A stretch of 64,000 nt of DNA from Siphonodentalium dalli (Eukaryota; Mollusca; Scaphopoda; Gadilida; Siphonodentaliidae). Under the pieces are notes generated by a model. It was given only the letters and a program-made list of their open reading frames with translations, was not told where the DNA came from and did not search any database. Location: assembly GCA_032622095.1 (NCBI GenBank), contig CP136062.1:57240420-57304419 (forward strand), written 5' to 3'. This document shows, one piece after another, positions 14,138-63,676 of this stretch (the first letter of the stretch is position 1; every line of letters begins with the position of its first letter). The translations under genes were made by a program, and so were the position numbers.

Positions 14138-14178
14138 CCGGGCAGTTAAACTTGTTTATGACCTCAATCATCTCTGTA

Positions 14179-26962: not shown

Positions 26963-27326
26963 TGATTATTACCGTTTTAATCTCAGACATGATGAGTCGC
27001 CGCCATGCCTTCCATATGTCTGCGTCCCTGCATTTGCTTGTTTTGAGAAAAAATGGTAAAACAGGCCATACTGTAATGTAATGCTGACATCGACTGTCCA
27101 ACAATTTGTTTGAATGAATACTGAGTTACGCCTAGTTCTATGGTTTATGGATATATCCGATATATATCCATATTGAAACGTCAATGATATGATTATGGGC
27201 GAAACTTGTTAACCGAGATCCATATAACCTGTCGAGTGTTGTATATCGATATTTGTTCTCGTATGTGCTTCACTCTGGGGTTGAAAACCCATAGCTTATT
27301 AGAGTAAAAGTTATCTATATCTATAT
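26963..27326. other. No feature recognised
   Basis: AT-rich spacer before the satellite array. Confidence 0.5.
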
Positions 27327-29134
27327 TTGCGAATGTCTGTCTGTCTGTCTGTGTTATATAGAAATTCACAGTGGACAACATAGATGGCACAAAAAGGGTC
27401 TAATAGGGGTAACTTTTTACGAGAAAGATAATGGCGAGGGTTAGAATTTTGTAAAGTGACGCAGTTGTTGTCAGGGACAGAAAAGGGAGAGGGGCAGAAA
27501 AAAAAATTGTCGCCGATTGCCACCAAACTTATACATAATCATCCCCATAATATGAGGAATCTAATGGTGTAGTTTAAATTTGTCAAAATCGCGCCGTTCG
27601 CGCCAGGGATGCCCGGAAGAGGAGAGGGGCACCAAAATTGATCAAAAATAATTATAGCGTCGAATTCCACCAAATTGATGCACATTCTTCTGAGATATTC
27701 TCCATGATACACGGAATCTTATTGTATGATTTAAAAACGCCAAATTGGTGTCGTTGGTGTGAGATATTTGGGGGGGGGCGGTTGGTGGGTACTAAATCTG
27801 ATACAAATTGGTTTAGTCGCCGATTGCCACGAAACTTATAGAAATTCATCCCCATGGTGTGATGTGTCTAATGGCATGGCTTAAAGCTGACAAAAGGGGC
27901 GTCATCCGATTCAGGGGTGCACTGAAAGGGAGAGGTGCACCAAAATTGATACACAATATGTTTAGCGCCAATTTCCACCAAATTGATAAACATTCTTATC
28001 CATGATATGAGGAATCTAATCGTGTGATTTTAAAGACGTCATATTGGTGCTGCTTTGGTTAGAGATGGGGTGGGGTGGGGTGGGCACTAAATTTGATAAA
28101 AAATTGTGTAGTCGCGGATTAGCACCAAACTTACAAATAATAATCTCCATGATATCAGGAGTCTAATTGTGTGGCTTAAAGATGTCAAAAGTGGGGCCAT
28201 TCGAGTCAGGGTTGCCTAGAAGGTGAGAGGGACACAAACTTTAATAAACAATATGTTTAGGGCCGATTTCCACCTGGTTGATACATTATATTCTTCTCCG
28301 TGATACGATTAATCGAATCGTGTGGTTTATATGCGCCAAATTGGTGCCTTTCTGTGTAAGAGATATGCAATGGTGGCCCTAAATTTGGTACGAATTTGTA
28401 TACTCGCCAGTTTTCATAAATTTTATATATATTCATCTATATACTGAGTCTAAGTGTGTGGTTTAATGATGTCAAAAATGGCGCCGCTTGAGTCCGAAAT
28501 AGGGACGGGAGGGTCACCACAAACTTATAAAAATATGTTTAGTGCCAATTACCATCAAACTCATACCCGCTATTCTCAAATAATACAATGAATCAAATAT
28601 TCGCGAATATCTGTGAGTGTTCTATATATAACGTTAAGGGTACAATCGAGATGGCACCAAGACTCTCTACCAGGGGTAACTGTTTACGATTAAGATAATG
28701 GTGTGGGTTGAAATTTTCTAAAGTGACGTTGTTGGTGTCAAGGGAGGGGCTATTGTTAGCGCAGATTTCGACCAAATTGATATAGTATTCTTCTCCGTGA
28801 TACGAGGAATATAAACGTGTGATTTAAAGACGCGAAATTGGTGCCGTTCGGGTGGGTGAGAGACGGGGGGGGGGGGGTAATAACTATGATAAGAATTTGT
28901 TTAGTTGCCGATTACCACCAAACTTATATATAATCATCTCCATTATATAATGCATGCATGAGTCTAATAGACGTAGTCTATATATGACAAACGTGGCGCG
29001 GTTCAAGTCATACATGAGGGGAGTTGCACTACAGTTGATACAAATATATTTAGCACTTATTCCACCAAATTCATGCACGTTCTTCTCTAATGATAAAATG
29101 AATTAAATCACATTTGGGGTCGTTTTGGGTCATG
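27327..29134 (+). repeat. Satellite array of alternating A/B ~150-bp monomers with TCTG microsatellite head
   Basis: The array begins with a (TCTG)n run (27333-27352), then TGTTATATAGAAATTCA and TAACTTTTTACGAGAAAG. After this head come two alternating monomer types. Type A contains GCGCCGATTTCCACCAAATT and TTCTTCTCC; type B contains TAGTCGCCGATTACCACCAA and ATAATCATCTCCAT. Anchors fall near 27507, 27661, 27817, 27964, 28110, 28258, 28404, 28539, 28759, 28904 and 29050, so the dimer is about 300 bp. The microsatellite-plus-satellite layout resembles 'pearl' elements described from oysters (established knowledge; identity here is inference). The last unit is cut at 29134 by a large insertion and continues at 48173. 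Confidence 0.85.
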
Positions 29135-29791
29135 CACTGCCAAAAATATTTTCTCAATTCAGGAAAAAAAAAATCTTGAAATGAGATATTATCTTGGGAG
29201 AATAGCTAGAAAAATAAGAAAAACATATTTTCTAGGTCAAGAAATGAAAGGGTGGGATAATTTCTTGTCTGAGAAAATTTCTTTAAGAAAACACAGTAAT
29301 CTTAGTAAGAAAATCCTAGTAAAAAAATCTTAGTATAGATTTTTTTTCTTAATGTAGGAAAGATTGTTTTTCTCACATAAGTTTATTTTTCTTGAAATAA
29401 GATAAGTTTAAGATACTGCGATTATCTTGGGAGAATAGCTAGAAATTTAAGAAAGCTATACAATTAATCTAGAACAAGAAATTATATTTTCTATAGTAAG
29501 AAATATCGTCAAGATATTTTTTCTTAAGTGATGCCAATTTTTTCTAGAATGAGATTTTCTCAAGCAGGAAAATAAATCTAAGTGAGGAAAACAAGTTTTC
29601 TTAACTAGGAATATTTTCCCCAATTAGGAAAGATATATTAGAAAACAATTCTTAATTAAGAAAAACATTTAATTTTAAATTAATATATAATTTCAATTGT
29701 GTTTTAAAATATACAATTGACATTTATTCTGAATATAAAAACTTGTAAATATCATTGTTAAATGTATAATAGAGACAATAAGGGGGCTTAA

Positions 29792-30283
29792 AGGCACGGG
29801 AGGCCTTAGTTGTCGAAAATATTCATATTTGTTTCAATCACCGTAAACAGAAAAACATTAAAACGCATACAGTTTTGTTCATATAAACATGACCATCGCG
29901 TAAACAGCATGCTATCATAAAGACCTACTATATTTTACCTAAGCAGGAGCCTGATTGTGTTACAGAAGGCAGCACAGTGTTACTGGCTAATCACACACAA
30001 ATGATATAAATGCTCTTTATTCGTTCCATATCAAAATTCAGCAACAATGAACGCTCTTTATGTTTACCATCATAATATAAACAAACACCAGGAAAGTACC
30101 TTTTTATGCTTTTGTTTACATAAGAATGGTCAAACATATGACAATAACATACTGTTTATGCGATATTTCTTATTTGTATACGGACAAAGTCTGTCTGCAT
30201 TTTAATATTCTTTCTGTTTGTGACGGTTTTTGACCGGTGGAAATATTTTCACAGCATACCCACCGCCAAGGCCTCCCGTACCT
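29792..30283. mobile_element. Non-autonomous element with TTAA target duplication
   Basis: The ends AGGCACGGGAGGCC and GGCCTCCCGTACCT are inverted. TTAA lies outside each (29788-29791 and 30284-30287). 492 bp, no transposase. Same target preference and AGG start as 8419-8940, so Kolobok-like is the tentative class. Confidence 0.8.
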
Positions 30284-30956
30284 TTAAACTTTAAATATAC
30301 AGTCAACAATTTCTCGTTACAGTTATGGGTTTCTAAAATTGCAAGTGGCCAAACAAGATACTGTGTACATTCGCGAAATGAAACTATACAAAGTACCTGT
30401 ATCTTGTTCTGCCTCTTAAAATTGTATAAACCTATATACGCAACAAAAAATATATTGATTGCTAATATTACATCCCGACACATGATTTTCAATATATTTA
30501 TAGAAAGAGTTACCTCAAATCTGTCGGTTGCAAAAATAATATATAACAATTTCTGTTATTTGAGTATCCAGTTCAAACGATAGGATAAAAAATCATCACA
30601 CATGACAAAACAAGCACTGTATGTGCCTTAATAAACATCGTAACCCTGTATTTTTAAATGCACATATTCTAGGACGGGTGATGTGTAATAAACACAGAAA
30701 GACACTTGTATTAATGGATTTGTTGATACAGCACTTGTGCCATTGAGGAAAGATAGAACTCTAGGGTGTGCTGTTCATTCCGTCATTGTGCGCTAGCACT
30801 CGTGTCATATCAACAAACCCATAAACAAAATTGTGTAATTCTAAGTATATACAGCATGGTTTCAATAGCTGTTTCATGAATCATGCAGATTGCAGGTTTA
30901 CTGTTCAGGTACTAGCCCAAGTCTTTTCGGTATGCAACAGCTTGAGATATCGAATA
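30284..30956. other. No feature recognised
   Basis: AT-rich; overlapping frames on both strands at 30202-30583 match nothing I know. Confidence 0.45.
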
Positions 30957-31169
30957 CAGTAATGCCCAGAGTATAATCGACTCCTTAAACACAGTAGAAT
31001 TATGGGTAACTTTTCAGGATTTAGTCGGAAATATGGCTTGTTGCCATTCATCAGAAAGCTCTCTGAGAGCTTTCCGATGAATGGCAACAAGCCATATTTC
31101 CAACTAAATCCTGAAAAGTTACCCATAATTCTGCTGTGGTTAAGGAGTTGATTACTTAGAGCATTACTG
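30957..31169. mobile_element. Palindromic MITE, copy 2
   Basis: Ends CAGTAATGCCC and GAGCATTACTG; arms carry TAATCGACTCC and GAATTATGGGTAACTTTTCA with near-perfect inverse arms around the loop at about 31063. TA precedes the left end (30955-30956); the right flank is CA, probably mutated. Closely related to 7791-8003. Confidence 0.8.
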
Positions 31170-32159
31170 CAGTTGAAACTGTTTTGGATCGAGTCCTGTC
31201 CGGCTACTCTTCTATAACCTCTCAAGATTTTGAAGTGTTGAATGGGTCACCATGAATCGCTCAATTAAACAATCGCAACGGTGTTGAGTGTTTTGCTTAT
31301 CGCTCACTATTTACTGCTGTATATAAACAAACGATTGACTCACACAAAGTGTGTTTTGTGGATAATAACGCATTCATATGAACATTATCCTATACTATTA
31401 GTATATTCTTGGGAACCTTTTTGTAAATGTTATTTATAAATTATAACCTATAACGAAGGCCATCCATTCCTTTAAGTTCCAAAGATATAAGGAGAATCAC
31501 TGCATTTTAATTGCATACCGCATCCATCGTGGTGCTGTTTTGTGTTCAAGTGACAACCTTACCATGGTGTTGGAAATTACTGCAGTGTAATACCACAGCA
31601 TTACCTGGGTAACACCACGTTAGAGATGGTCAATTACTTTAAGTATATGCAGGTTTGAAATCATCACGCTTGGGAAAGGCTGCCCTCTATGTTCTTATAA
31701 AAAAGCGTCACTTTGACCTAATCTGACGAAATACTGGTAGTGCTACAATCAAGATAACTTCAACCCACAATTCTGGGCGTAAAGTCCATTATAGAAGAGT
31801 ATCGGGATGGGACTCGGTCCAAAACAGCATCAACCCAACCGATACCACAAGTTGTGGACAGGGAAAACTTGGTCTAAACAGGTACTAGTACATGCATGTA
31901 TTACAAGCATTAAAGGGTACACTAAATCCGGCCATTTATGAGACCATCTCCTTGTATACTCAACAGAATATATGCAACAAATGAATGTGCTCTATGTCTA
32001 AGCCACATTAAGCTCCTTGTACAGATTACTTGGTGATGCAGCAGGTTGACAAAGATAAAGGAACATCAGAATATTTTTATTCTGTGATGGATTTTAAGGC
32101 CTGTATGTGTGTACATGTACATGAATCTGATTATATTGACATGCTGCAATAATGTGTCA
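31170..32159. other. No feature recognised
   Basis: No supportable gene, RNA or element end. Confidence 0.5.
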
Positions 32160-32445
32160 CTTGAAGTGATGTGAAACACTCCAATAGGGTGATAAAATAT
32201 AAATGGAGAATAATCTTGTTAAAAGTAGTACTTTTTACAAACATTATATCCAAATTAACAACACACACCATCATTCGTATACATAATTAAATGCAGTAAC
32301 TATCAAAGGCGAACTCGTTTTCGTTATATTATCGCCGATAGATGCGCCCCGAATCGAGTAGTAAATATTCACAATTGAGCGTAGTTCAGACAATGTTTTC
32401 TATGGAGTATTACGGTTGATTTGCTTTCGATTTTCGGCTATGTTA
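32160..32445 (-). repeat. Dispersed repeat, reverse copy of 2655-2930
   Basis: Read on the minus strand it matches 2655-2930 through CCGAAAATCG, CTCCATAGAAA, TATCGGCGATAA, CTGCATTTAATTA and GTGTTTCACATCACTT. It has one copy of the 59-bp unit that is amplified at 2871-3106. Confidence 0.75.
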
Positions 32446-33424
32446 GTAGAATGCTACCTTATTCCAGTTGGCATAGCGCCTTGGTACTAACTGATCAGTT
32501 TCACGCACCAGAACAAGTGCATAATATATCTTTAAAAGTTCATATCCTTCAGACAAGCTCAGAAACAAGGCTTGAGACTGATCCATGGGTACTGTTGTGC
32601 TTTGTGTAGAGATATGAAACTGGTACACCTCCAAATTCTGGTCAATGTAGTATGAAGTACGGTATAACAAAGGTTATGCATACACTGGATGCCATAGTGC
32701 ACATTTTCTGAGACTCATACAGGTACATACAGAAGCATACAGGTACATGTATGTTGTAGAATTGAATTCACTAACTTCACTTGCCAAGATTTTCACCACT
32801 AAGTCTGATAAAATGTAGACGTCACTGATCGGTCTCCACCAAGGAAGGAATTGATGTGTCATTTTTGCCTTTGATGAAGACATTGGTCATCATTTGGTTA
32901 TATATTAAAGCCTCCCCTTCGCTGCACAGTACTGGATTCAGTGCATACCGTCCATTAGCATACATATGGTACATGTATATAGCCAGGACTGTCACAAAGC
33001 AACAACTCACATTATGTCATGCATGGACGAATACCGATAACATCTAGATTACATGTATCCGTTACATGTACACCGAATAACATTTGAAATCCTTCCTCAT
33101 CCAGTCCTGGTCAGAATTAATAATATTGGTATCAAGGGTAATCATTATCTGCAAGAAACAGTCAGGAAACATGATTCTATGATTGGTTGTCAGATATCAT
33201 GCCTTGAATGAAATGTGTATGTCTCAATCCAGTCAGGCAGCTCCTCCTGTCTGAAAAATAAGATTTGAATGCTTGTAATGACATCAGAAAAGCGGAATGA
33301 CTAATCATGTACATATTATTAAGATGTACGGTCCAAATTAATCACCCGAGGGGGGGGGCAGTTATAACAGTAATGTTATCCATTCAAACGCTGCATGTTG
33401 GTCAGAATCAGCTACAAATACATA
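32446..33424. other. No feature recognised
   Basis: AT-rich; several ACATGTACAT-type short palindromes. Nothing else. Confidence 0.45.
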
Positions 33425-33936
33425 TATTTACATACTAAGTGTTGTCATCACTAAATCCAGCATACTGATTGGTCGGCGCCCACGTGGCTAGTTGCAGTTA
33501 TTTCTCGGTGAATGCGCAACGGCTCATAACACCAAGCTCACAACACCATACATACGTCATTGGGTTTGGAAAGACGAACGCGTAATGTTTTGGGAGCATT
33601 TGGACTCGCGCAGGATTGACTTAATACATCATCTGGTTGCAATATGAAGAGAAATTGTTCCTATTAACTTTTGCCAAGGGTGCTATTGGGTACTTTGGGC
33701 TGTTTTTTGTCACGATACACTATTCAATTTAAATACATTTACAAAAGTGGCTTTTTCGCTAAATGTATATAAATATAAGGATTAACTGTCATGTGGACTA
33801 TTTTAATGGAGATGTAACCGTGAGGAAAGTGGTCATAACTTGTATGTAAAACCCTTTGGGTTTTACACAAGTTATGTCCACTTACCTCACGGTTACATCT
33901 CCATAAAAACAGTCCACATGACAGTTAATACTTATG
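33425..33936. mobile_element. ~512-bp element with 3'-proximal palindrome, copy 2
   Basis: Collinear with 14179-14694 from TATTTACATACTAAGTGTTG to AGTTAATACTTATG, including GACGAACGCGTAATGTTTTG and the terminal palindrome at 33780-33930. Flanks are AT-rich (TACATA on both sides), so a duplication cannot be excluded for this copy alone. The empty-site evidence comes from copy 1. Confidence 0.75.
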
Positions 33937-34183
33937 TACATATACTAGTAGCATATACCGTTGTAACAGGATACCTCCCCTTAAATATCTCCCCACTAAC
34001 AATACCCACATGAATGACTAAAATAAAATTTCACTCATTTGATATGTTACTTGAACAAACAAAATTAAATAAAAAACAAACGTAAATCTCATAAAACATC
34101 TTTTTCGGGCCATTTCATGGTCAAATGATATCAAAAGGGTGAATTTTCTTTTAGTCAAAGATTGGGGGAATGTCAGTGAATTA

Positions 34184-34262
34184 CAGTAATGCCCAAAGTA
34201 AGTGACCACTTAACCTCAGGATTGTGGGTAATTTTTCAGGATTTATTCAGAAATATGGCTTG
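34184..34262. mobile_element. Palindromic MITE, truncated copy 3
   Basis: CAGTAATGCCCAAAGTAA preceded by TA, then TTGTGGGTAATTTTTCAGGA and GAAATATGGCTTG. Only the left arm is recognisable. Confidence 0.65.
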
Positions 34263-34590
34263 TGTGGTCTCACACCAGAAACTTCTAACACAGCAGTACT
34301 AGAAAGGTTACCGCTTCAACACTGCACCAAATCGGTTGATATTTATGTAAAATATACGAAGCAGACTAGGTGTTATGTATTGCTCTGCGTACCTATTTTT
34401 CCATGTACCTAAAAATAAGTCAAGCCCTGTTCCATGTGTGAGGTATGGCTACATGTATACTCAAAGTAATTGGCCACCTCTTAGTATAGTGCCCCCGTTA
34501 ATACTGCAGTATTAAAGATATATAAAGCACAGTAACCTCCAACACCTCATTATGGTTACTAGTACAGTTTCAACGTTGCATATACCACAG

Positions 34591-34757
34591 TTACACCCCA
34601 TATGCATGTTGTCATGTCACACCCCATATGCATGTTGTCATGTTACACCCCATATGCATGTTGTCATGTTACACCCCATATGCATGTTGTCATGTTACAC
34701 CCCATATGGCATATGCATGTTGTCATGTTACACCCCATATGCATGTTGTCATGTTTC
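34591..34757. repeat. 26-bp tandem repeat, ~6 copies
   Basis: The unit ACACCCCATATGCATGTTGT+CATGTT has a 26-bp period. One unit carries an extra GGCATATG. All plus frames stay open across it, so the frames at 34552-35020 are not gene evidence. Confidence 0.95.
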
Positions 34758-36544
34758 GCATGCATGAAAATAAAATGCAGTGTTTTTCCTCCTATCTGTG
34801 GAACGGATGGCCTTCGTTACATGTACATGTATATATTATTCCAAATATAGGACATGGGAACGCTGATAGAAAAATTGTATTGTATATACGGGAGTTAAAT
34901 GTAGCACATAATGAACTTTTAAGTTGCCAACATTGTTTAGGCTGTCAATTTATAAACTCCACCCATCCATGTTGTCAGGCTGCATTGATTGGCATTACAC
35001 AAACAAGCATGAAAAGATAATTTAGTGATTCATCTTATTCATGCATATATAAGTTCATTGAACAAGATCCATGTGGCTGTTTTAATTTTCAACTTTTGGT
35101 GTGATATTTGTTGGTGTATCATAACTGCATGGTGCTCCACAACAGTAATCGACTTGATACCGTGGTGGATATCATATACTGCCCGTATATACTGCGATCA
35201 TTACCAGGTATCCCCCCGGAAAACAACTGCGGGACACAACGTACCGGGGGGGTGGGGTGGTACTTAGGCGTAAAAAATTTACACGTAAATTTTTTCCTTA
35301 TACATTTAGGGGGGGGGGGGTTGTCGGAAAAATTTTGCATGTAATATTTTTCCAAATATGTATTTTCAGACTCCCAACTTCAATTTTCTCTCATTTTATA
35401 GAATATGGATTAACCTTAATATCCAAATCATATATACATGAGTAATACAATCCACATAAAACAATTTTGGATAACCACTGTCTTGGTGTACATGTGATAT
35501 TGACCCCATTAACCCTCTTAATAATGCCAACTATGTCAGTGTCTACCAGTCGATTGCAGAATTCTACCCTGCGATCGCTTATCTGGCAAATTTTTACTGC
35601 AGAACTATCCCATGTATTAAACAATTTCTCCTCCAATGGTATCAGAAAACAGTTATATGCTGGTATCTCACTCATCTCATTTGCATCTTTTTCAAAGTCG
35701 AGGTAATGACTAGTTGTCATTTTTTAAAGTGCATACATAGCGTTGCGATCACCAATATACATGTTTGTACATGTCATGACATCACGAGGTACAAATCTGC
35801 GTTCTACTGGTAGACAATGACCATTTTAGTCACAATAATCTAAACTAAGTTAACAAGCACCTTCTCGTGAATTGTATGCTCCGGTGTTTTTTTCGCTTTC
35901 CGGTCAAACCGAGTTGTTGTCCGGCTGCGGTAGATTTGATTTGGGGGGGGGGGGCGGGCAAATGGTCAGTGGAAAAAAACTGCAGTTTTTGCTGTTTTGG
36001 GAGGGGGGGGGGATACCCAAACCGAAGAAAACAGTTTTTTCCACCCTGTGTCTGCAGTTTTTTTCCACCCCCCCCCTGCCCCCCCCCCCCCCCCCATTTT
36101 TAAGGTCCATAATTTTGAGGATAGCAGTATATACATGTATTGGTGACAATGTACAAATATTCATCTGCATGGTAGCTATACATGTAGATTATAAACTCAC
36201 CACTGGTATTTTGGCGAACAGACTTCCAGTAATATTTCACCTGTCATTTGTTCATTGCCACGTGTCTAGCTAGACAGGACCGACGCTTAGACTAATCATG
36301 GGCGAAATCAATCTTCATATGTTGAAGATGAGAGGGCATGATGCCGCATCCACCATGGCTAATGAATCTGGTATTTCTGTAATTGAAGAAAAAATACATG
36401 TACATGTATGCTGCATATATATGTATGTGATATGGATGCATGTATTTTCATAATTTGCAAACATATTCAAAAACCAAGTGTAAAGTTCATTCTTCCAACA
36501 ATATTAGCATTTTCGGCGATTCAGATGTCAGAAGACCATAATTC
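34758..36544. other. No gene supported; G/C homopolymer-rich segment
   Basis: G runs at 35242-35260, 35310-35321, 35943-35953 and 36001-36011, and C runs near 36068-36095, make fold-back structures between about 35200 and 36100. A 109-codon minus-strand frame at 35720-35391 has no recognised domain. These runs may also be assembly-prone. Confidence 0.5.
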
Positions 36545-36660
36545 AATCGTAAGTGGAGGAATCGGGCCTGACAAAATCATGGATAGTTTGTTACGATGTC
36601 ATCGCAGATGAGAATATTTAATATCGGTGGTTAACCACGTGATTAACTATCCTATGATAT
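36545..36660 (+). repeat. Hairpin-forming flank repeat, left copy
   Basis: Shares TAAGTGGAGGAA(T/C)CGGG, AAAATCATGGATAGTTTGTT-like and ACGATGTC phrases with 43262-43397 in the same orientation. ATCATGGATAGTT and AACTATCCTATGAT form a stem across it. The two copies lie outside the GTGACTGACATTAC motifs that surround the D-D-D gene. Confidence 0.7.
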
Positions 36661-36705
36661 TTCTATTTACTTTGTACGATTTTTACGTTGTACAGTGCAA
36701 TTCCA

Positions 36706-37270
36706 CGTGACTGACATTACATTCAAAGAACTTTTTCCAGATTCATTGTGATGATACCAGCAACATGTATAACTATATAATCTTATTTATATGTGTGATG
36801 TTGGCTTGTGCCATGGTGCACCCAAAAATGTGCATTATTCTGAATTTAGTCAAGCGATGATAAAATGGCATCGTTCAATGTTAGCGTGACTGACATTACA
36901 TGAAAATATCAAGGCACATTGCGAACTTGTTTTCAAATTAAATTTGTCTTAAATTTACAGAAACTCATATGATTTTCTTTGTTAATTTTGCGTGGTAGAT
37001 ATTTCAAGATAATGTTAAAGCAAAATTTAAGCTCAGAACTATAATAAAATATTTGTTGTTGTCTAAATTATGCGTGACTGACATTACACTAATTTCGTGA
37101 CTGACATTACGCTATGAAATATATCAAGTATTTCCAACAGTTTCTGATCCAAATGAGTAATTAGTGCCCTACAATCATATTTTATGGGGTATATATGCAT
37201 TTAATATATTGTATTACCATATACAGCACATAAACATGACATTGGCCATTGTAAGCGTGACTGACATTAC
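36706..37270 (+). repeat. Left cluster of CGTGACTGACATTAC motifs (5 copies)
   Basis: Exact 15-mers at 36706-36720, 36885-36899, 37073-37087, 37096-37110 and 37256-37270, all in plus orientation. They lie 3' of the minus-strand gene at 37376-39409 and pair with a four-copy cluster at 42491-42705. Clustered subterminal motifs on both sides of a transposase gene are typical transposase-binding sites (family knowledge); the role here is inferred. Confidence 0.85.
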
Positions 37271-37375
37271 ACAAAATTATCCAAGATACATGGTAACTGG
37301 ATTTCAAATTTAAGTTGTTTTACATTCAAATAATTTAATATGAACACTAAATAATATTGAACAAAGAACTGCACT

Positions 37376-39409
37376 TTAACTATTTGCTGGGAAATCTGGG
37401 AAATCAAAATTCCCACGTGAATTTACAACAACTGGGCCATTCAGTTTCTTGCATATATCTTCCCGTTGATATACAAGCGTGTCTTCATGTGAAGGCCACT
37501 TCCAGAACTTCCCAGCACTGACCATAACAGAAACTTCATATGTTTCCCCAAAGATGCGTTTTACTTCACCAGGAAAGACTTCATCATCATATCTCACAGC
37601 ACACCATTCACCAATGCTTAGAGAAGTGTTTTCTGGTTGTGAATGCAAAACTTCTGCAGTTGAGCTACAATCTGGTGATTGTTTCGTCATTCTGCAAGAT
37701 ATCATGCCAGCTTCAAACTTCACAAAATGGATAGACTTTATACCCTTTATTGACAGTGCATTATTGAAAATCATTTCGAGCTCTAGGGACTCATTTCGCT
37801 GCTTTATTTCCGCAGAGGTCATTGCCATACAATGAACTTTTGAAGAGAGTCCAGCAGCAACAGTAAACGAAGCTGCGTCCTTCACCACTGCCTTCCGTGT
37901 CTTCACACACGTCCCTACCTGCCTCTTGACAGAGCCACCAATGCCATCCACCGGCCCTTTCCCATGAGACGTGGCAAAGAAATTCCACTGAATTTTCACA
38001 TTGTGTTTCTTTTCAAGCATGGGTATTGAAGCAAACACAAATCTGTTCTTGAACTGTGAGGAAGGTCCGTCGGACCAGATAGAAATGTATTTCACAGTTT
38101 GAGGCAAATGTTCCATGAGCATGTCAATGTAGGCAACTAGTGTATCCTTTGAGTGACTGCGATCATCTGATGTGATTACTTTCGGATGCAACTGGCCGTC
38201 ATACCACAAAGCTGCTGTGAAAAGGGTGACTTGGTTATGCTGCCAATGAGCACTTTGAATCTCATCCTGTTGAGAACATGAATAATTTTCTGCTTAATCA
38301 ATTTGTAGCAAAGCCATGGCGGGATTATATGTTTCACTACCCACAGATTCCCTTTGCATTCTGTACGACTTAGCTTGTTCACGTTTGATATGACAGTGAA
38401 TTATGAAATTTGGAAGTAACTCAAGAATATGATTGAAGAGTTGTGATGATGTACCTTCCTCTAAAGCTTTGCATAATTGGTCATCGTTATTTCTCCAAAC
38501 ATACCAGCTTACAGGGACCACATCATTTGCTGGTATGGAAAACTTTTTCACAAACAATTCCCCATTGCCACACTCACTACACTCATTGAACCAACACGCC
38601 TCCGTTGCATCCTTGCACAAGAACATTTCTGGCATTTCATGGCCATATTTTGGGAATTCCTTGTGAACATTGTGTAATGAATTCACAGCCATGATAAAAT
38701 TCTCATGATATTTACATAAACAAACATTCTTGGGAAGTTTGCTACTGAGTAAAACATTCTTAGGTCTTAATTCTGCGAACTTGCTTTTCCCTATCTTTTC
38801 TGATGGATGCTCTTCTTTGAATAGTGCGTACACTTCAACTACTGATGGAGTAAGGTGACGCGTTTGAACTTTGTATTTTGTTCCATCATGATTTCGAATA
38901 TTCACGATATCCTTTATCCCTGGAGCTTGACGACTTATATCGTCACGTGAATAAAAATTTGCCACTAGTGTTGCAGTTTGTTCATTTAGGGAATTTGCAC
39001 ATGGCCTTTGGTTTGGTGTGTTGTCACTACTTTCTGAAGAATTTGTGAACTTCCTAGCAATTGATTGACAAATTGCCCAGCTCCGTCTTGGAGTAATGGG
39101 GAGCACCCTCTTAACACGTGATATCGCACGACCTAAAGCCTGGGCACTCCTGAATGCCGGCGTTGAAGCAGCCTGCTCTTTTCTTTGGTTTTCTCTGCAG
39201 TTTGCTACTCTCTTTTTGTTCATCATATTTAATCTCTTTTGTTCCTCATATTGGACCGATGGGTGCAAATCGGACAGTTCAACTTTTTTCTTCAATCTAC
39301 TTTTATTTTGTTGAGCTGTGTTTCTTTCCTTATATGATGCATAAGCTTCAGGGTCCTGTTTGAGCTTTTCCCTGCGTCTGCCTTGTCTCTCCGCAGCAGT
39401 CAACACCAT
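37376..39409 (-). pseudogene. Putative D-D-D transposase, one in-frame stop (codon 372)
   Basis: The minus-strand frame runs from ATG at 39409 to a stop at 37376, 677 codons, broken only by TAA at 38296-38294. Residues 1-80 are very basic (RQGRRREKLKQDPEAYASYK; NKKRVANCRENQRK). Cys/His clusters follow: C230-x-C232-x2-H235, then C265, C272, C277, C280, and H338-C339-H340. D371 lies in LLQID, immediately before the stop and AENY. D447 lies in IWSDGPSSQFKN and D488 in TSHGKGPVDGIGG, giving a D-75-D-40-D spacing like a DDE catalytic triad. Residues 599-672 (YDDEVFPGEV...FWKWP) look Tudor/SH3-like. I recall the FATSHGKGP.DGIGG family from many fish and invertebrates as uncharacterised proteins. 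This start is chosen because a pyrimidine tract and AG acceptor (39430-39412) lie just upstream, so an upstream non-coding exon is likely. The remainder is intact, so the loss looks recent, or is a sequence error. Confidence 0.8.
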
Positions 39410-39440
39410 AGCTAGAAAATAAGAAAAGGAGATTTTATTA
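39410..39440 (-). promoter_or_regulatory. Candidate 3' splice acceptor before the transposase ATG
   Basis: On the minus strand CTCCTTTTCTTATTTTCTAG is followed by CTATGG. The pyrimidine-rich tract and AG, two bases before the start codon, indicate an intron in the 5' UTR; the upstream exon is not located. Confidence 0.6.
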
Positions 39441-39589
39441 AACACAGTTCTAACATTAAATTGCTTAAGAGTACCAGTAAATACCAGTATGATCTTCAAT
39501 ATTATCCACATTGGATATTGTTTATGAAAACATTTCAATCGGCTGAGTAATTATTGCCACCAAACACCGCAAATTTTAAAATAGGTTTC

Positions 39590-41540
39590 AATTGCATTTT
39601 TCACTGGTTTCAAATGCAAAAGAGGCACATTTTACCCAAACAAACTGACTTTCTTCCACATTAAATATAATTTTCAAAATGAGAAACAATGGATATCATT
39701 GAAATTGATACAATCATTTGAGTGAACAGTAATTAAACAAATAAACATTGAAAACTTGAAACGAGTATCTTATTCCAATTTTCTCTGGTTTCAAATGCCA
39801 AACAAGTAACTTTTTGCCTAAAACAGTGTTTATCACAGTATTAAAGTATGAATTTCAATATGAGATATATTGGATTTAATTCATGCAAACAAGTTTATGG
39901 GGATACCGACCTAATGAACAACCCAAATTGGAAATTAGCATCAGATTCCAATTTTCACCAGTTACAAATACAAAAAATACAGTTTGTGCCCAAAATTAGA
40001 GCTCTGTTTCACAGTAAATATGATTTTCAATAGTATACAACTTTGATATTGCTCATGCACACATTTCGATCAGATTAGCAACCTACCAAACACGGCAAAT
40101 TGAAAATAGTTTAAATTTAATTTTTCACTGGTTTCAAATTCAAAAAAGGCACATTTTGCCCAAAAAACTGAGTTTCTTCCACATTAAATATAATTTCAAA
40201 ATGATAAACATTGGATATCATTGATGCAATTATTATGAGTGAACAGTAGCCCACTAAACATTGAGAACTTGAAACGAGGATCTGATTCCAATTTTCACTA
40301 GTTTCAAATGCCAAAAAAGGCACTTTTTGCCTAAAAACAGTGTTTATCACAGTAAGTATGAATTTCAATATGAGATATATTGGATTTAATTCATGCAAAC
40401 AAGTTTTTAGGGATAGCAACCTAATGAACACCTCAAATTGGAAATTAGCATCCGATTCCAATTTTCACTGGTTTCAAATAAAAAAAATGCATTTTTACCC
40501 AAAAATAGAATTCTGTTTCAAATTAAATATGATTTTCAAAAGTATACACCTTGGATAATGTTCATGCAAACATTTCTGTCAGATTAGCAACCTACCAAAC
40601 ACGGCAAATTTGAAAATAGTTTAAATTTCATTTTTTACTGGTTTCAAAAGCAAAAAAGGCACATTTTGCCCAACAAACTGAGTTTCTTCCACATTAAAAA
40701 TAATTTCAAAATGAGAAACATTGGATTTCATTTGATGCAATTATTATGAGTGAACAGTAGCCCACTAAACATTGAGAACTTGAAACGAGGATCTGATTCC
40801 AATTTTCACTACCGGTAGTTTCAAATGCCAAAAAAGGCACTTTTTGCCTAAAAACAGTGTTTATCACAGTAAGTATGAATTTCAATATGAGATATATTGG
40901 ATTTAATTCATGCAAACAAGTTTTTAGGGATAGCAACCTAATGAACACCCCAAATTGGAAATTAGCATCCGATTCCAATTTTCACTGGTTTCAAATAAAA
41001 AAAATGCATTTTTACCCAAAAATAGAATTCTGTTTCAAATTAAATATGATTTTCAAAAGTATACACCTTGGATAATGTTCATGCAAACATTTCTGTCAGA
41101 TTAGCAACCTACCAAACACCGCAAATATGAAAATAATTTTCAATTTAATTTTTCACTGGTTTCAAATGCTAAAAAGGTCACTTTTTGCCCCAAAAATTGA
41201 GTTTCTTCCACATTAAATATCATTTTCAATATGATAAACATTGGGTTTCAGTTATGAAAACAGTTTGATTTGAACATCAACCTACCAGACATTGAAATCT
41301 TCGAACTAGAATGGGATTCCAATTTTCATGGTTTAAAATGTTAAAAAAAACTCTTTTTGCCCCAAAATAAGTTTCTTATGATTGAAATAACCTGAAGTAG
41401 ATACATTAGTAGTTATGTAGTCATTGAAATAAACATTTTTGTAATCCAAGGCAAACAATGAAGATTTATATTGGGAATTATACACCAATTCCAATTTTCC
41501 TTTTTTTTTAAACGAAAAAACACTTTCTGCCGAAAAATGA
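39590..41540. repeat. Tandem array, ~245-bp basic unit, 517-bp higher-order copies
   Basis: Units contain TTCACTGGTTTCAAATGC, CACTTTTTGCC, ATGCAAACA and TTCCAATTTTCAC. Two higher-order copies are nearly identical: TTTATCACAGTAAGTATGAA occurs at about 40344 and 40861, 517 bp apart. The array lies between the transposase gene and its right-hand motif cluster, probably in its 5' intron. Frames inside it are by-products. Confidence 0.85.
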
Positions 41541-42490
41541 GTTGCATTTATTCAAATAAGCCCCTAAATAATAACCAAAACCCCTACATATACAAATTAT
41601 TTCATGTCATACCTGTATCTATGTCAATACTGTGATAAAATGGTAAAATTCCAATATTATGATGATAATATCAAGAGCAAATTTGTTTTCCAAACCTGAA
41701 GCAGACTACTAAAAGTTTGCATAGCTGACATAGCAACAACAAAATGACATCATTAGTGATGTCATCATTGATGACATATACTTCATTCATAAAATTGTAT
41801 GAATGAAAGGGGTCATATATACAGAAGTATAGAACTTCAGGGAAAGTTGTAACATGCTAAATCCATCTATATATTCAAGTATCAAGTTAAACTCCACAAA
41901 TGTACATAAAAATGTACCGGCACATGTATATGTATGAATCAGTATAATATATATATTGTTGACCCAGTGACATATCCAGGCCGTTTTTGATACAGTTTAC
42001 CGGTTTGGGCGCCCAAACTCCAGGGGTAAAAAAAAACAAAAATTACCAAAATAAAAAAAAAAAATTTAATTTTGTTTTTACTTCAGGTCCCAATTCATAT
42101 CATAACAAGATCTATATATTTATATATATTGTGATAATTTGGAAAATATGTAGCATACCTTTCAAGTCTGGTCCGATTTTCCATGTCCTCTTCTTGTGAA
42201 TTAATATTAAAATCACAAACACACATCTCAGGAGATAAGTACGACGTGTACGACTTACTCACTCGCCATCTATGTTCTGAAACTTTTCTTATTATATTAA
42301 AATTTAAATACCACTACGCATACATTCAATGCTCACATACATGTACATCATGAGAACAATATTCAAAATTACTAGTAGTAGATGCACCTATATATGGAAC
42401 TGCATACGTTTACAAATCCAATTACTACATGTAGTATGTTTTCTTACAAGATTTTTATGCCATCTACCAGAATAGGAACAAATTGCAAAA
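41541..42490. other. No feature recognised
   Basis: AT-rich upstream region of the minus-strand gene. It would be the place to look for its promoter and first exon, but I see no clear signal. Confidence 0.4.
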
Positions 42491-42705
42491 TGTGACTGAC
42501 ATTACATGCCGTGACTGACATTACGTGTGACTGACATTACATATTTCAACGCTTGCTAGCGGTCAACTTAGACATCGGATGGTGCTTATATTGAACACAG
42601 ACATTGCGGCTCAGGTTTATTGAGTGCCTCTAAGATATGGTTGTTATATTGTCATGCAATATTGTTTTATACCAAAAAAGGTAGTATTTTCGTGACTGAC
42701 ATTAC
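42491..42705 (+). repeat. Right cluster of YGTGACTGACATTAC motifs (4 copies)
   Basis: Copies at 42491-42505, 42510-42524, 42526-42540 and 42691-42705, same orientation as the left cluster. The first three are spaced 16-19 bp apart. Confidence 0.85.
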
Positions 42706-43078
42706 ATATAGTATGTAGATTTCTGAAAATTATTTTTCCCCAAATGGACATCAGTCACAGAAATATAAACCCAAGATGTGTTATAGCGTGCATCGACCTA
42801 TTTAAATACTGAAATACTGCAGGCCAATATTAAATAATTGTTACAATTTGCTCAATTTCTTACAAGCCACTTTTGGCAAATATTTTAGTAGCACACGTGT
42901 GTCAACAATGGCATAAGCTTTCAGCACTAAAATGATAAATATGAGAGAGAGAAAAACTGTTTTCAATAACTTGAATACCATGACTATCAGATTTTCAAAC
43001 TGTTTAGTCAATATTCAAGATTTAATTTTTTCACAAATTTCATTCTCCGTCGTGGAATTGCCCTACACGCAAATTTCA

Positions 43079-43600
43079 CCAAGTGGAGGTAACCAAGGAT
43101 ACGTCACAATTTTTGCAAATCTGCATTGATATAACTCGTGATCATGTCGTGAGCATGCGCAGTCCAACTATCGGTTATTACCCAAGATGGGAATCTGTCC
43201 ACTTACAATTGAATCGTAGTCATATGAATCATGAATGTTCACTCAGTGAACGTACAGATGAAAGATATAATCTTAAGTGGAGGAACCGGGATCGACGAGA
43301 TCGTGGATAGTTTGTTCACACGATTACGATGTCGTACATGATGAAATCACAGTTTTTTTGTAAAGCATGTGATTGACTATCATGCGATCCTTCAGGCCAC
43401 ACTTTTTACATACACATGACTGATTAGTGATTACGTCGCAAATGGGGATAACCAAGGATACGCCACAATTTCGCTTTTAAATAAAACAGTGCATGATATT
43501 ATTGTTTACCTACTTACAATTGTATCGTGGTAATCTGAACGTTCACTTAGTGTTAAATTGGCCATGGCATGACAATATTAAAGAGATTGTGGGAATTCTA
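43079..43600. repeat. Partial tandem duplication near the right flank
   Basis: AACCAAGGATACG(T/C)CACAATTT occurs near 43092 and 43451, and ACTTACAATTG(A/T)ATCGT with GTTCACT(C/T)AGTG near 43201 and 43513. The repeat spans the right hairpin copy. Confidence 0.7.
43262..43397 (+). repeat. Hairpin-forming flank repeat, right copy
   Basis: Direct-orientation match to 36545-36660. GATCGTGGATAGT and ACTATCATGCGATC form the stem. In both copies one frame reads (S)GG-x-G-x-D-x-I-x-D-S-L-(L/F)...RC and then stops. Confidence 0.7.
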
Positions 43601-43611
43601 TCAGATTGACT

Positions 43612-44018
43612 ATCTATCTATCTACTCGATACTCCATCGCCCTCAATGTGCTGAGGATTATGTGGAGGTCCAGGTGCTACCACGGCCGAGTAACTTTATA
43701 ACCCTGTGGTGACTCCAGTAGCGTTCTTTAACGTGCACACACTGAGGCGTGTACACGGGTCAGCCATTAATGTCCGCGTCCAATCGGACAGCGTACTGAA
43801 CCCACGACAACATACCTGGACAAGTGTTGTAATGGGGGGAAGTCGGCATTTTTGCATTCGGATCTTTATTCAGTGATCTCGAATGAGACTTTTCAGCCTG
43901 ACAAACTTGTATCTGACCGAGTTCTGATTTTTGTCAGAATACCCTGACCACGTTACGATCCCCGGTCCGATAGCACGAGAGACCAGTACGCTACCTGTCG
44001 GCCACCGACTTCCCTTGA
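43612..44018 (-). mobile_element. tRNA-derived SINE-like element
   Basis: On the minus strand the head at 44018-43945 reads GTCGGTGGCCGACAGGTAGC then TACTGGTCTCTCGTGCTA and GGACCGGGGATCG. This is a decayed tRNA with a box A-like TGGCCGACAGG and a mutated box B. The body contains GCGTTCTTTAACGTGCACAC on the plus strand, a sequence type I know from marine-invertebrate SINE bodies. The distal end is a (TATC)n run at 43612-43632, a plausible SINE tail. No functional tRNA is claimed. Confidence 0.65.
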
Positions 44019-45339
44019 CATTTGTTAGAATAATGGTATGAAGTATAACTGATCATAACTGACAATTTCCTTATAAGCTACATGTATATTTTCAATAAAT
44101 GGGACCTTTTTATTTTCCAACTATTGTCATATCAATGTCGACCGATAATACACTGCATTTATGGCAGAATTTGATTTTGCAGACGAAAATAGCCATTCCC
44201 GGATGGTTTTTTCTTTTTATGTAGCATAAAATTTAGGCCAATTTATAATTCATTAAAAATCGTTTTTGCAGTTGGGAACGCAGTTGGGAATATTGTGTAG
44301 GGCTACCTTTATATATGAATCATAAATGCCATATAATCATAGTCCGTCAGAAGTTACTATTTTGACCAAAAAAATGTTCATTTATCAATGACGGATTCCA
44401 TTTTCTGAAATATTACACGGAAACAAAATTAGGCCGATTTACTATCAAATTTCATTTGAATAAAATGGATAATTCGTGCCCTTTTAATTGTAGTTCGATT
44501 AAATATTTTACTAGTAACAGTCTGTTCATAATGAGAAATCACTTCAATTGATTACTAATTAGTTTCACTTACCTAAAATCCGATCAATTTGTATCCTATG
44601 AAAACGTAAGATGGACGTAGTTTTTTATCCACGAAGCCTCGATCTGAGCCGGTAGGTAAAACAATAGGAATGCTTTTGCCCCTGTTGTAAAGTGGAACGA
44701 AATTACACGCTCAAATTTGTAATAATAAAAGTTCAACGAAGCAATAGATTGATAAGGCCACCACCAACAGGAACGTGGAGACAGGGTGATTGGGGTGTAT
44801 ATATCCCAAACAGTTCTAATAATTAAAAATTTCATGACTGCCACATTAGTTGTAAACTTCACACCATATAAGAGCACCCCCACCCCCTGGAATACGGAAT
44901 AATACCACTTAACACAGAGGGTGGAATACGAAATACCAGTTAACAGCCATATGGATAAATTCTCTATTGTCGTACGAACGCAGGTCATAATGTCCATGTC
45001 TAAAATGATATAAATTGATGATCGACGATCTGTATGTCAAACCGTGCATTTATTGTGACAAACATCGCATTTATATTATTCTTATGATCATTTTTTTTGG
45101 AAGGTTGGAATACGAATACCGGTATTTTTGGAATACCGAATACCTCCTAACAGAGGGGCCGGAATATGTCGTACCTCGTAACAGGGCATGGAATACGGCG
45201 TACGAAATGGGGGGGGGCTCTTACAGGTAAATCACAGGTAAATGACATACATAAAAAACACACTCACCGCGCTGTTGAAGGGGGGGGGGTGTCTGTGCAA
45301 CCTTTGTTTATTAATTTAACCCTTTCATAACGGGAGTTA
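44019..45339. other. No gene supported
   Basis: Holds C- and G-rich short segments at 44870-44890 and 45205-45222 with nearby GGAATACG-type repeats, possibly a small fold-back element (about 44868-45225), but end identity is weak. A 133-codon minus frame at 44997-44596 overlaps it and matches nothing I know. Confidence 0.4.
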
Positions 45340-47210
45340 GGCTGGTGCAGCATTAAGGACGCTGTTTGTATTAAACATTTATCATGGTCAGTGTATGCAT
45401 TTTAAAACACAGGGCAAGTTAGATTACATCATTTAATTGATATTCTAGTTAAAATAGTCTGTGAAACTACTTTAAAACCACATGTTATGCACCCTGTTTT
45501 GCCAACCAAACTATGAAATATAGATATGTTATTTGTTTTATTATCAGAGAAAAGCATTCTGCAAAGATATGGCCTTATACATGTTATAAACATGCAAATA
45601 GTGGCTTCATTTGGCCTTTCTACCATCATTTAGAGAGTCAAATCTGAAGAAATTCCCTTAGTTTGATATTTATGATTCCATAATCCCATGAAATGGTATT
45701 TAAAACCTCAAATGTCAGTATTTCCTATCAGATGGACATATCAACTAATAAATTAAACATTTCCCATGGTCATTACATGCATTTTTAATATACAAGGCAA
45801 TGTAGAAAACATCATTTGATGGATATTTTACTTAAAATAGTCAGTGGAAACTACATAAAAGCAATATTGTATGCATCCCTGTATAGCCAAATCAAATTAA
45901 ACTATGGATATTGTATTGTTTATTTCATCTGAGACATGTATTCTGTTCAGATATAGCCTTATATATGTTATAAAGATGCCAATAATGGCATAATTTAGGC
46001 TTTTTTTCCATAATTTAGAGGGTCAAAGCTGAATAAATTCCCTTATTTCAAATTTGTAAGATGCCAAGCCAGCTGAAATGGTATATCAAACCTCAAATGG
46101 CAGTATTTCTTATCAGATGGACATCTCTACCAATAAATTAAACATTTTTCATGGTCATTGCATGCATTTTAATATACAGGACAAGGCAGAAAACATCATT
46201 TGATGGATATTTTACTTAAAATAGTCTGTGGAAACAACCTAAAAGCCATGTTGTATGCATCCCTGTATAGCCAAAACAAATTAAACTATGGATATTTTAT
46301 TGTTGATTTCATCAGAGACATGTATTCTGTTGAGATATAGCCTTATACATGTCATTAACATGCAAATAGTGGCTTCATTTTGGCTTTCTTCCATTATTTA
46401 GAGAGTCAAATCTGAAGGAATTCCCTTAGTTTGATATTTATGATCCCATAATCCCATGAAATGGTATTTTAAACCTCAATTGTCAGTATTTCTTATCAGA
46501 TGGACATATCAACTAATGAATTAAACATTTCCCATGATCATTACAAGCATTTTAATATACAAGGCTATGTAGAAAACATCATTTGATGGATATTTTACTT
46601 AAAATGGTCTGTGGAAACTACATAAAACCAATATTGTATGCATCCCTCTATAGCCAAATGCAATTGAACTATGGATATTTTATTGTGCATTTTATCAGAG
46701 ACATGTATTCTGTTGAGATATAGCCTTATACATGTTACTAACATGCAAATAGTGGCTTCATTTGGGCTTTCTTCCATAATTTAGAGGGTCAAAGCTGAAT
46801 AAATTTCCTTAGGTTTCAAATTTAAAAGATGCCAAGCCAGCTGAAATGGTGTATCAAACCTAAAATGTCAGTATTTCTTATCAGATTGACATCTCTACCT
46901 ATAAATTAAGCATTTATCATGGCCATTGCATGCATTTTAATATATAGGACAAGGCAGAACACATCACTTGATGGATATTTGACTTAAAATACTTTGTGGA
47001 AACTACATAAAAGCCACATTGTATGCTTTCCTATATAGCCAAATGAAATTCAACTATGGATAAATTGGATATTTTATTGTTTGTATCATCAGAGACATGC
47101 ATTCTGCTAAGATATAGTCTTTTGTGTATTATAAACATACAATAGGTGCATGGCCTCATTGGGCTTGCTTTCATAATACAAGAGAGTCAACTCTGAAGAA
47201 ATACCATCGG
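45340..47210. repeat. 384-bp satellite, ~5 copies, 768-bp dimeric order
   Basis: AAAAT(A/G)GTC...GTGGAAAC anchors fall at 45451, 45834, 46218, 46601 and 46986, a period of 383-385 bp. Odd and even units differ: CCATAATCCCATGAAATGG in units 1 and 3, and GATGCCAAGCCAGCTGAAAT in units 2 and 4 (46061 and 46829, 768 bp apart). This is a two-unit higher-order repeat. Confidence 0.9.
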
Positions 47211-47419
47211 TTTGAAATTGGTAGCATCTTCCATCCTTATATAAGAGGGGTATATACCAGCTTGAAGTACCTGTTTAATTAATAGGTTCAATGCAAGGGG
47301 CCACCAGAGAGGTTTGTCTAGTTCGGGATGGTGTGGCAAACCACCAACTGGAGATTTCAAGGGAGGCCTCCTCAATGGCGACCCACTATATTGTGCAAAC
47401 AAAATTTTATTAAAATTGT

Positions 47420-47860
47420 ATAAAGGTCAGCAATCCCTAAGAGCATTGAGAAATAGATAAAAACACTTACTGACAGATTGCCAATAACAAAATTACCGCT
47501 GTTGAAACTATTGTCATGTAAACAAAACTGTTACAGTGATTTGTCAACAAATATATAATTCTAGCTGTATTATTAGTTCAAATATTTAACTATGAATAAC
47601 ATTTTCAGAATATTTAATCAACAGGTTGGACCTTTTCCAATGTTATGTAAACAAAACTGTTACAGTGAGTGACTTGTCAACAATTATATAATCCTATAGC
47701 TGTAGTATTACATGTAGTTCAAATATTTAAGTATGAATATGAATTTCAGAATATTTAATCAACAGGTTGGACCTTTTTCAATGTTTACCATAACATTTTT
47801 ATCACAATGTTGCTATCGTTGGACTTTTACAGTTATTCCATTACAGCAGTAATTTGTACA
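47420..47860. repeat. Relative of the TTAA-element interior, internally duplicated
   Basis: GTAAACAAAACTGTTACAGT occurs at about 47517 and 47646, each followed by AGAATATTTAATCAACAGGT. The same phrase is inside 8419-8940 (about 8583). Confidence 0.65.
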
Positions 47861-48172
47861 TAACAATTAATTCTTGGTTTAGAAATATTTTCTTTAAGTA
47901 TTTCTTAACTTAGAAAAAAAATCTTGAAACAAGAAATATATATTTAATTTTTGAAGCCATTTTCTTAGTAAGGAAATTGTTTCTTGTTTCAAGACTAAAA
48001 TCTATCTTATTTGAGAAAACTATCTCTTGACTGGTGGGAGTTTCTTAAATTTTCTTGATGTAGCAGACTTGGGGGGTATATTTCCCAAAATAAGATTTAT
48101 TTTCCTGTTTCAGGAAATAGTTTTTCTTGTTTCAAGATATTTTATCTTATTAAGAAATTATTTTTGGCAGTG

Positions 48173-48204
48173 TGGATGGCGAGAGGAGATTCACTAGCAT
48201 TTTA
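48173..48204 (+). repeat. 32-bp sliver of satellite-bearing element between two insertions
   Basis: TGGATGGCGAGAGGAGATTC, continuing to CATTTTA, matches the reverse strand of 61634-61672 and joins 29134 on its left with 53766 on its right. Confidence 0.8.
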
Positions 48205-53765: not shown

Positions 53766-54842
53766 TATTTATAAGATTGTTCAATTCGCCGATATAAAGT
53801 AAAATATAGTTATCTCCCAGGCCATCTCCATGTCGTTCTAAGGCGTTTCTGGCATTCCAATTTCACAATCTTGACGAATGGTGACCGAATTAAGTCACTT
53901 AAACAATTATATCTTCTCAAATATCATATTTATATGGGGACGGAAATCAGGGCAGTATATTTATATCAATCTATTTAAGAGATACATATATTCATTCAAA
54001 CTGAGGGACATTGAATCGTCAGAGGATTGCATATTATAATGGCTCATGTATATATTATAACACGATTGAGTCTGTCCCATTCAATATATTTTCCACAACA
54101 AAAGTTTCAGTTGCCAAGAGATATGGATATGTAGAGCAGACCTGTTCAAAAATAGTGGTAACAGTGTGCAGTCAAATGTGGTTACTTCTGAGATAAAGGA
54201 AAACGCAGTCCGTAGCACATGACTGTTCAGGATCCTCCAAAATGACATATGACAAGGGTATATCTGCCCGATACAGAGGATTTCGTTCATTTTTTAGAAC
54301 AGACTCATCGCCTAACATAAGCAACTCAAAATCTCGCTGTGTCTGGCACAATGAAGCTTCTATACTTGCATAACATCATTTCTTTTAAACTCAAAATTAT
54401 TAGCCAGTATATAGGACCAGAACAGAGGGGCACCTGACCATATCTTTAAAACAACTCTATCGTCATGAAGATATGATAAACTAGATTGATTGGTTGATTG
54501 GTTGATTGATACATATCTATGTAAAACCCAATTGTCGTCTTTTATTTTTTCGAACTAATGTATTTATGATGTTCATGTTTCATGATGTAACGTCTGAAGT
54601 ATCGCAGTTTTAAATAAATAAATACTTCTTTATCGGTGGGACGGATTAAACGCGATAAACAAAATGATAATCGCTCCGACCTAACAAGGTGAGCCACTAC
54701 TTATATTCCATGTAAGAATAATGTTTTGTGATGCCATTTGGATATACAATTTATGAGAATACGTGTAACACGTTGAGAGCAAGAGTATTCACCAACTATC
54801 ACATCACTTTAACCTGAGCAACGCCGGGTAACCCTGCTAGTA
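53766..54842 (-). mobile_element. Right part of interrupted satellite-bearing element with terminus
   Basis: Continues the element cut at 29134 and 48204. On the minus strand, from 54840, it starts CTAGCAGGGTTACCCGGCG, then CATCACAAAACATTATTCTT, ATCCGTCCCACCGATAA, a relic coding stretch at 54200-54000 and TCTCCCAGGCCATCTCC-type sequence (plus-strand phrase). The same order is found from 60822 rightward on the plus strand. The terminus style resembles rolling-circle-type (Helentron/pearl) elements; inference. Confidence 0.7.
54011..54240 (+). pseudogene. Relic coding segment in the satellite-bearing element
   Basis: One frame reads CQEIWICR...LFKNSGNSVQS...EIKENAV before a stop. The equivalent segments at 60.4-60.6 kb (minus strand) and 61.15-61.35 kb (minus strand) read NSGHS(L/M)QS(H/N)IV and EIKENSVSFF(H/Y)F. 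Shared in-frame residues across copies suggest an old exon of the parent element. Family unknown. Confidence 0.4.
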
Positions 54843-56405: not shown

Positions 56406-56769
56406 ATTTATCTCAGTAGAAACTATATTGACTGCACATTGTGACCACTATTTTTGAACAGGCCTTCTATACATTTCTCTTTCTCTTGAGAAATTGTATC
56501 CTTTTTTGTGGAAAATAACTTGAATGGGACAGACTAACTTGTTTTATAATACATGAGCCACTCTAACATGCCATCCTCTGATGGTTGAAGGTCCCTAATT
56601 TTGAAAGTATTATGTATCTCTTAAATTGAATGATAAATACAATTCTACGTATCTGTTTTTGCTAGCTAACTGATGACCTAATGTCCTGATTCCCGTCCCC
56701 ATAAGAATATGACAATAGAAGATAGAATTGTTGGAGTTACTTAATTCGGTCACCATTTGTCGAGGTTGT
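56406..56769 (+). mobile_element. Relic segment of the satellite-bearing element
   Basis: Matches 60470-60820 and 61190-61545: GACTGCACATTGTGACCACT, GAATGGGACAGACT, CATGAGCCA, AATCCTCTGA-like and TTAATTCGGTCACCATTTGT. Confidence 0.75.

Positions 56770-63674: not shown

Positions 63675-63676
<2 letters not shown>

Follow-up and report, generated by a model that had tools for sequence, protein, structure and literature searches.

Positions 29135-48172 of a 64,000-nucleotide stretch of the genome of the scaphopod Siphonodentalium dalli (assembly GCA_032622095.1, contig CP136062.1, positions 57,240,420 to 57,304,419 of the forward strand; hereafter the window) are one insertion with exact ends and a 2-bp TG target duplication. 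It is probable that this insertion represents a single cut-and-paste transposon of the EnSpm/CACTA type, as judged by its ends, that entered a tandem-repeat array; about half of its 19 kb would be secondary, the D-D-D transposase-like gene that it contains would be owned by a nested element, and the outer element itself would most likely be non-autonomous (Table 1). At the left boundary (29134/29135), the flank ...GGGTCATG is followed directly by CACTGCCAAAAATA, which starts with CACTGCC, and at the right boundary (48172/48173), TATTTTTGGCAGTG, which ends in GGCAGTG, is followed by TGGATGGC. When the two flanks were joined in silico, their alignment with the reverse complement of 61560-61800 continued across the junction, and the joined target GGGTCATGGATGGCRAGAGGA had a single match in the window at up to 3 mismatches, namely a perfect one on the minus strand at 61656-61676, compared with a match in 0 of 100 shuffles. 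The array also has a second, more diverged copy at about 56.88 kb, which is likewise uninterrupted. Because the joined flanks align with uninterrupted copies of the array, both ends can be placed in one target carrying the TG duplication. These results confirmed the 19-kb insertion with a reconstructed empty site that had been claimed in an earlier sequence-only reading, including its exact coordinates, and also the claim of a common insertion site, since the flanks form a single array repeat with a 2-bp overlap at the borders of the terminal inverted repeats (TIRs).

The target of the insertions in this region is a degenerate array of approximately 300-bp repeats in both orientations, occupying 27313-29134 and 56407-63998. 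In our self-comparison of the window, from which satellite-versus-satellite rows were excluded (256 rows remaining) and in which rows of at least 50 bits were considered, the homology of the flanks extended outward, with 28751-29134 matching 62009-61669 at 74% identity, and on the right side it restarted at 53768, after a second insert at 48203-53767. This second insert measures 5,565 bp, starts 30 bp past the right end of the outer element, and has the ends TAGTAGAGGC...GCCTCTACTA, inverted arms of approximately 960 bp at 75% identity, and TTT on both sides.

The ends of the outer element bore out the CACTGCC inverted termini described previously. The TIRs were identical at 14/14 positions, and 8/10 of the next columns also agreed (22/24 of the first bases), after which the similarity faded. 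Six matches to CACTGCCAAAAATA were found in the window at up to 3 mismatches, of which the two ends had none and the other four had 3, while inverted ends of at least 14 bp occurred in only 2 of 2,000,000 random point pairs from the window. Both termini are embedded in subterminal blocks dense in TTTCTT, AAGAAA, and AAGATA words, the left one of which also holds a 34-bp direct repeat (29188-29221/29421-29454). On the left, TTTCTT/AAGATA/ATCTTG-class words covered 0.24 of 546 bp, and on the right 0.29 of 303 bp, against means of 0.065 and 0.063 and maxima of 0.16 and 0.22 in the respective first-order resampling controls (2000 each). When 637 windows of 300 bp were ranked by their content of TTTCTT/AAGATA/ATCTTG-type hexamers, the top nine all overlapped or adjoined the outer ends, with best densities of 0.28 and 0.26 there and a median of 0.02 across the whole stretch. 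The long subterminal blocks of TTTCTTG and TCAAGATA that had been claimed were thus upheld as a motif class that is dense at both ends, but not as exact words, which were sparse (TTTCTTG, 2 left and 3 right; TCAAGATA, 1 left and 1 right).

Table 1. Positions of the outer insertion, the nested element, and further repeats (numbering of the window)
Feature	Position	Strand	Description
Outer element	29135-48172	none	19,038 bp, CACTG...CAGTG ends; basis: reconstructed empty site and 14-bp TIR
TG target duplication, left copy	29133-29134	+	
TG target duplication, right copy	48173-48174	+	
Empty site	61656-61676	minus	Uninterrupted target copy
Left TIR	29135-29148	+	CACTGCCAAAAATA
Right TIR	48159-48172	minus	CACTGCCAAAAATA
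Left subterminal block	29135-29680		Dense TTTCTT/AAGAAA/AAGATA words
Right subterminal block	47870-48172		Motif class as in left block
Nested element (putative)	36508-43248		~6.7 kb, encloses D-D-D gene; basis: end alignments against the miniature element at 43240-43552
GTGACTGACATTAC, five exact copies	36707-37270	+	
GTGACTGACATTAC, four exact copies	42492-42705	+	
D-D-D transposase-like frame	37376-39409	minus	677 codons and stop
Tandem array	39562-41244		Period 171, within nested element
Miniature element of nested family	43240-43552	+	313 bp, CACTCAGTGAACGTACAGAT...ATCTGAACGTTCACTTAGTG, TT each side
Short element	29792-30283		TTAA both sides, ends AGGYACGGGAGGCCTT
Palindromic repeat	30953-31169		89% to 7787-8003
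Unit with inverted ends	31172-31834		46-bp ends, 85% complementary
Repeat	32161-32535	minus	81% to 2559-2929
Repeat	33423-33937	+	93% to 14177-14695
Tandem array	45370-47202		Period 383, near right end of outer element

Three features of the outer element correspond to those of EnSpm/CACTA (CMC) transposons, namely TIRs of the CAC...GTG form (CACTA or CACTG), here CACTGCCAAAAATA at 14/14, a target duplication of 2-3 bp, here TG together with an empty site, and repeated short subterminal motifs, which are typical of CACTA elements. Judged by its ends only, the outer element is of the EnSpm/CACTA type, as the sequence-only reading had suggested, and by the same ends it is a further member of an already known kind, with the nested element left unclassified. 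A Pfam scan of 44 of the 112 stop-to-stop frames of at least 50 codons lying wholly inside the outer element (all 42 of at least 70 codons and two shorter ones, with both halves of the D-D-D gene included) gave no match to Transposase_21 or any other family at curated cut-offs. The assignment is therefore based on the ends only, because no CMC transposase was matched, and a non-autonomous member would lack such a gene. Sub-threshold hits to SID-1, OSK, FMO-like, PH_FAN, PolyG_pol, and DCP1 (0.012-0.09) in other interior frames and to DUF1815 (0.083) in a frame outside the outer element were read as chance, and Rfam produced no match in the window at gathering scores.

The outer element was compared with the closest known systems, as far as the accessible text of each source describes them. 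Animal CACTA elements have CAC..GTG ends and 2-bp duplications (PMC6004678), and ENS1_Cis of Ciona savignyi and the CMC-NA miniature inverted-repeat transposable elements (MITEs) share with it the CAC..GTG termini, the 2-bp duplication, and a short TIR, whereas the CMC-NA elements are MITEs (PMC6004678) and the outer element is 19 kb long, contains nested elements, and has yielded no CMC transposase. CNIRT6 of Cryptococcus neoformans, assigned to CACTA in the CMC group, has TIRs that likewise start with CACTG, but it differs in its length of approximately 7.5 kb, 24-bp TIR, 3-bp duplication, and own CMC transposase (PMC12810828). A large CMC-EnSpm element of zebrafish resembles the outer element in a 13-bp TIR with a CACT start followed by an A-rich stretch (CACTCAAAAAAAT), but it has two full proteins, none of which was recognised here (PMC11202377). 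SmTRC1 of Schistosoma mansoni shares the 2-bp duplication, paralogous empty sites, and internal tandem repeats, but it has CCC ends, a 54-bp TIR, and a Transposase_21 domain (PMC1636069). No match to this particular element was found in the open-access literature, a result that says little, as it concerns the accessible text of open papers only.

The D-D-D gene enclosed by the outer element appears to belong to a second family. Nine exact plus-strand copies of the 14-mer GTGACTGACATTAC, which had no further match in the window at up to 1 mismatch, form two clusters that bracket the gene and a tandem array with a period of 171. When inverted ends were sought on either side of the gene (TIR plus duplication, 33940-37376 and 39410-45370), 8 rows of at least 14/16 were obtained, two of which were one pair shifted by one base, compared with 0-3 in six resampled controls, and the row 36543/43212 fell within a longer inverted similarity that led to the ends of the nested element. 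The adjoining MITE at 43240-43552 is complete, with 20-bp ends (CACTCAGTGAACGTACAGAT/ATCTGAACGTTCACTTAGTG) that are 90% complementary; it displays CACT-type inverted ends and a 2-bp TT duplication, a weak sign as it comprises only 2 bp in A+T-rich DNA, whereas the left end of the large nested element is degenerate. The nested left end (~36.5 kb) aligned with the left half of the MITE at a score of 112 (control maximum 77, 0/1000) and the right end (~43.2 kb) with its right half at 90 (control maximum 71, 0/1000), whereas the cross pairs scored 52 and 58, a chance level reached by 274/1000 and 77/1000 controls. The left end also matched the inverted right end at 105 (control maximum 89, 0/1000), and all four ends could be aligned together. 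Random pieces of the window scored at best 73 against the left half (982 pieces) and 83 against the right half (975 pieces). Under stringent scoring, the match of the nested left end to the MITE was retained (57, maximum 31 in 500 controls). Because the left and right ends of this second family lie outside the GTGACTGACATTAC copies, the nested element at ~36508-43248 is most likely the owner of the D-D-D gene.

The gene itself is present as a D-D-D type frame, as claimed, although it is interrupted by one in-frame TAA (38294-38296). First-order resampling of the frame produced a mean of 36 in-frame stops and never fewer than 20 (2000 trials). The likely acidic triad, picked by eye, comprises D371, D447, and D488 (in QID, SDG, and PVDG). 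Unnamed proteins that carry an HGKGPxDG stretch occur commonly in animal genomes. Searches with the D-D-D protein returned no Pfam match at curated cut-offs, and the best E values were 0.058 against PHROGs, 0.41 against NCBIfam, and 0.3 against PDB sequences (xylose reductases); a Pet127 hit in Pfam (E 0.03-0.07) was below cut-off and read as chance. In IMG/VR, a piece of the transposase, one back-translated motif, and the outer TIR had zero matches, and two further motif patterns occurred in 10 and 1 contigs on the motif alone, none of which encoded a relative (best E at least 3). Two further IMG/VR contigs, out of 16 stretches with a pattern, were rejected, as their match consists of a charged REKLKQDPEAY-like stretch (residues 5-134). 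Such matches reached E ~4e-5 at best at 29% identity, or 62% over 26 residues, and in one of the two contigs the match sits in a long frame that holds several repeats of this type; we read them as low-complexity resemblance and not as kinship. The single match from a scan of bacterial and archaeal genomes was also discarded, its frame being unlike the D-D-D gene outside the motif. The CMCT signature places C(2)C and H(3-4)H between the second D and the last acidic residue, according to the accessible text of PMC12730594. This signature is absent from the D-D-D protein, the sole CxxC of which starts at residue 277, before D371, with no HxxxH or HxxxxH anywhere. Two single-sequence structure models, considered for the RNase H-like fold of DDE/D transposases, had mean predicted local distance difference test (pLDDT) values of 36 and 33, too poor for use.

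Subtraction of five short units and of 36508-43552 from the 19,038 bp left approximately 9.7 kb for the outer element. In CACTA biology, the enzyme binds subterminal words and cuts at the ends of the element. A transposase would accordingly have bound the subterminal TTTCTT/AAGATA words, cut beside CACTG, and inserted the element with a 2-bp stagger. Later landings inside it would include the ~6.7-kb second element with CACTNAGTG-type ends, its adjoining 313-bp miniature relative, and several short repeats. Since the ~9.7 kb carry no recognised transposase, the outer element is most likely non-autonomous and was moved by an enzyme encoded elsewhere, and in its present state it probably cannot mobilise itself; its own gene may have been lost or may never have been there, and, less likely, the nested enzyme could act on the outer element.

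Several observations weigh against this interpretation. The right-half match to the MITE is the weaker one because random pieces of the window reach 83, a value that its score of 90 barely exceeds. Under stringent scoring, the similarity between the nested left end and the inverted right end (36) was just over the control maximum (32 in 500 controls), and that between the inverted right end and the left part of the MITE (20) was at chance (mean 18.9). The degenerate left end renders the exact first base uncertain, so that 36508 is approximate, and neither a target duplication nor an empty site is demonstrable for the nested element. Its junction with the MITE is not clean, because the nested right end and the MITE left end share the 9-bp near-palindrome CACTCAGTG (43237-43251). 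Within the 64-kb window, neither the outer element nor the large nested element was seen a second time. Among the 70 interior frames with 50-69 codons, 2 were covered by the Pfam scan, which could have missed a gene that is unusual or rich in introns. Finally, a CACT start is common to the outer and the nested ends, which could let the D-D-D protein act on either element. As a separate observation, the CACTCAGTG overlap looks as if one element had inserted at, or recombined with, the terminus of the other.

The nested 6.7-kb element may constitute an unclassified lineage with CMC-like CACTNAGTG ends and a D-D-D transposase that lacks the CMC signature and matches nothing significantly in Pfam, NCBIfam, PHROGs, or PDB sequences, and the outer CACTGCC element might likewise have been mobilised by this enzyme; we regard this proposal as rather unlikely.

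Among the alternatives, an entire 19-kb autonomous giant element, in which the D-D-D gene goes with the CACTGCC ends and the GTGACTGACATTAC clusters serve as internal regulatory or binding repeats, would account for the D-D-D frame being the only gene-like frame recognised among those scanned, and for the preservation of 677 codons with one stop where resampling gave a mean of 36 and a minimum of 20 in 2000 trials. Large zebrafish CMC-EnSpm elements overlooked by an automatic tool are also on record in the accessible text of PMC11202377. Nevertheless, the gene sits between a left and a right end of the second family, oriented as expected, with a complete miniature copy of that family alongside, and we hold this explanation to be improbable. 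Of the two possibilities raised by the sequence-only reading, the undescribed giant element with its own D-D-D gene is thus not favoured, as the gene lies between the ends of the second element, and a small element swollen by nesting fits better, given that this second element has a repeated motif of its own and that more short repeats are nested elsewhere. A composite macrotransposon, in which two outer-type elements trapped the DNA between them, might be suggested by the long interior with few recognised genes; it is very unlikely, as the interior contains neither a CACTGCC end at up to 3 mismatches to the 14-mer nor a TTTCTT-type block (hexamer density there of at most 0.08, versus 0.26-0.28 at the ends). 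A false pair of ends, derived from two independent short elements or from a misjoined assembly, is the least credible explanation, being at odds with outside flanks that make one contiguous array repeat with an overlap of exactly 2 bp at the TIR borders, with identical TIRs, and with the lack of a partner for either end within the window.

Other repeats accompany these elements inside and near the insertion (Table 1). The inverted pair 31446-31516/34764-34824 (ACGAAGGCCATCC) was weighed as a further nested element, yet it crosses the unit at 31172-31834 in a manner unaccounted for by simple nesting. The sequence at 14177-14695 is a 519-bp repeat with an empty site of its own at 16523, its flanks (13789-15449) being duplicated at 16129-17320 without the repeat. 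Additionally, an array of approximately 1 kb at 6673-7669 consists of 91 copies of the 11-bp unit GCACTCACCAT.

The preferred reading, a nested CACTA-type insertion, provides an exactly bounded CACTG element together with its empty site and illustrates a route by which such an element may reach 19 kb, approximately half of it through nesting. It also advises caution, as the sole transposase within a transposon need not be that transposon's own. If the nested D-D-D gene does represent a separate lineage with CACT-type ends, this would bear on the delimitation of the CMC group.

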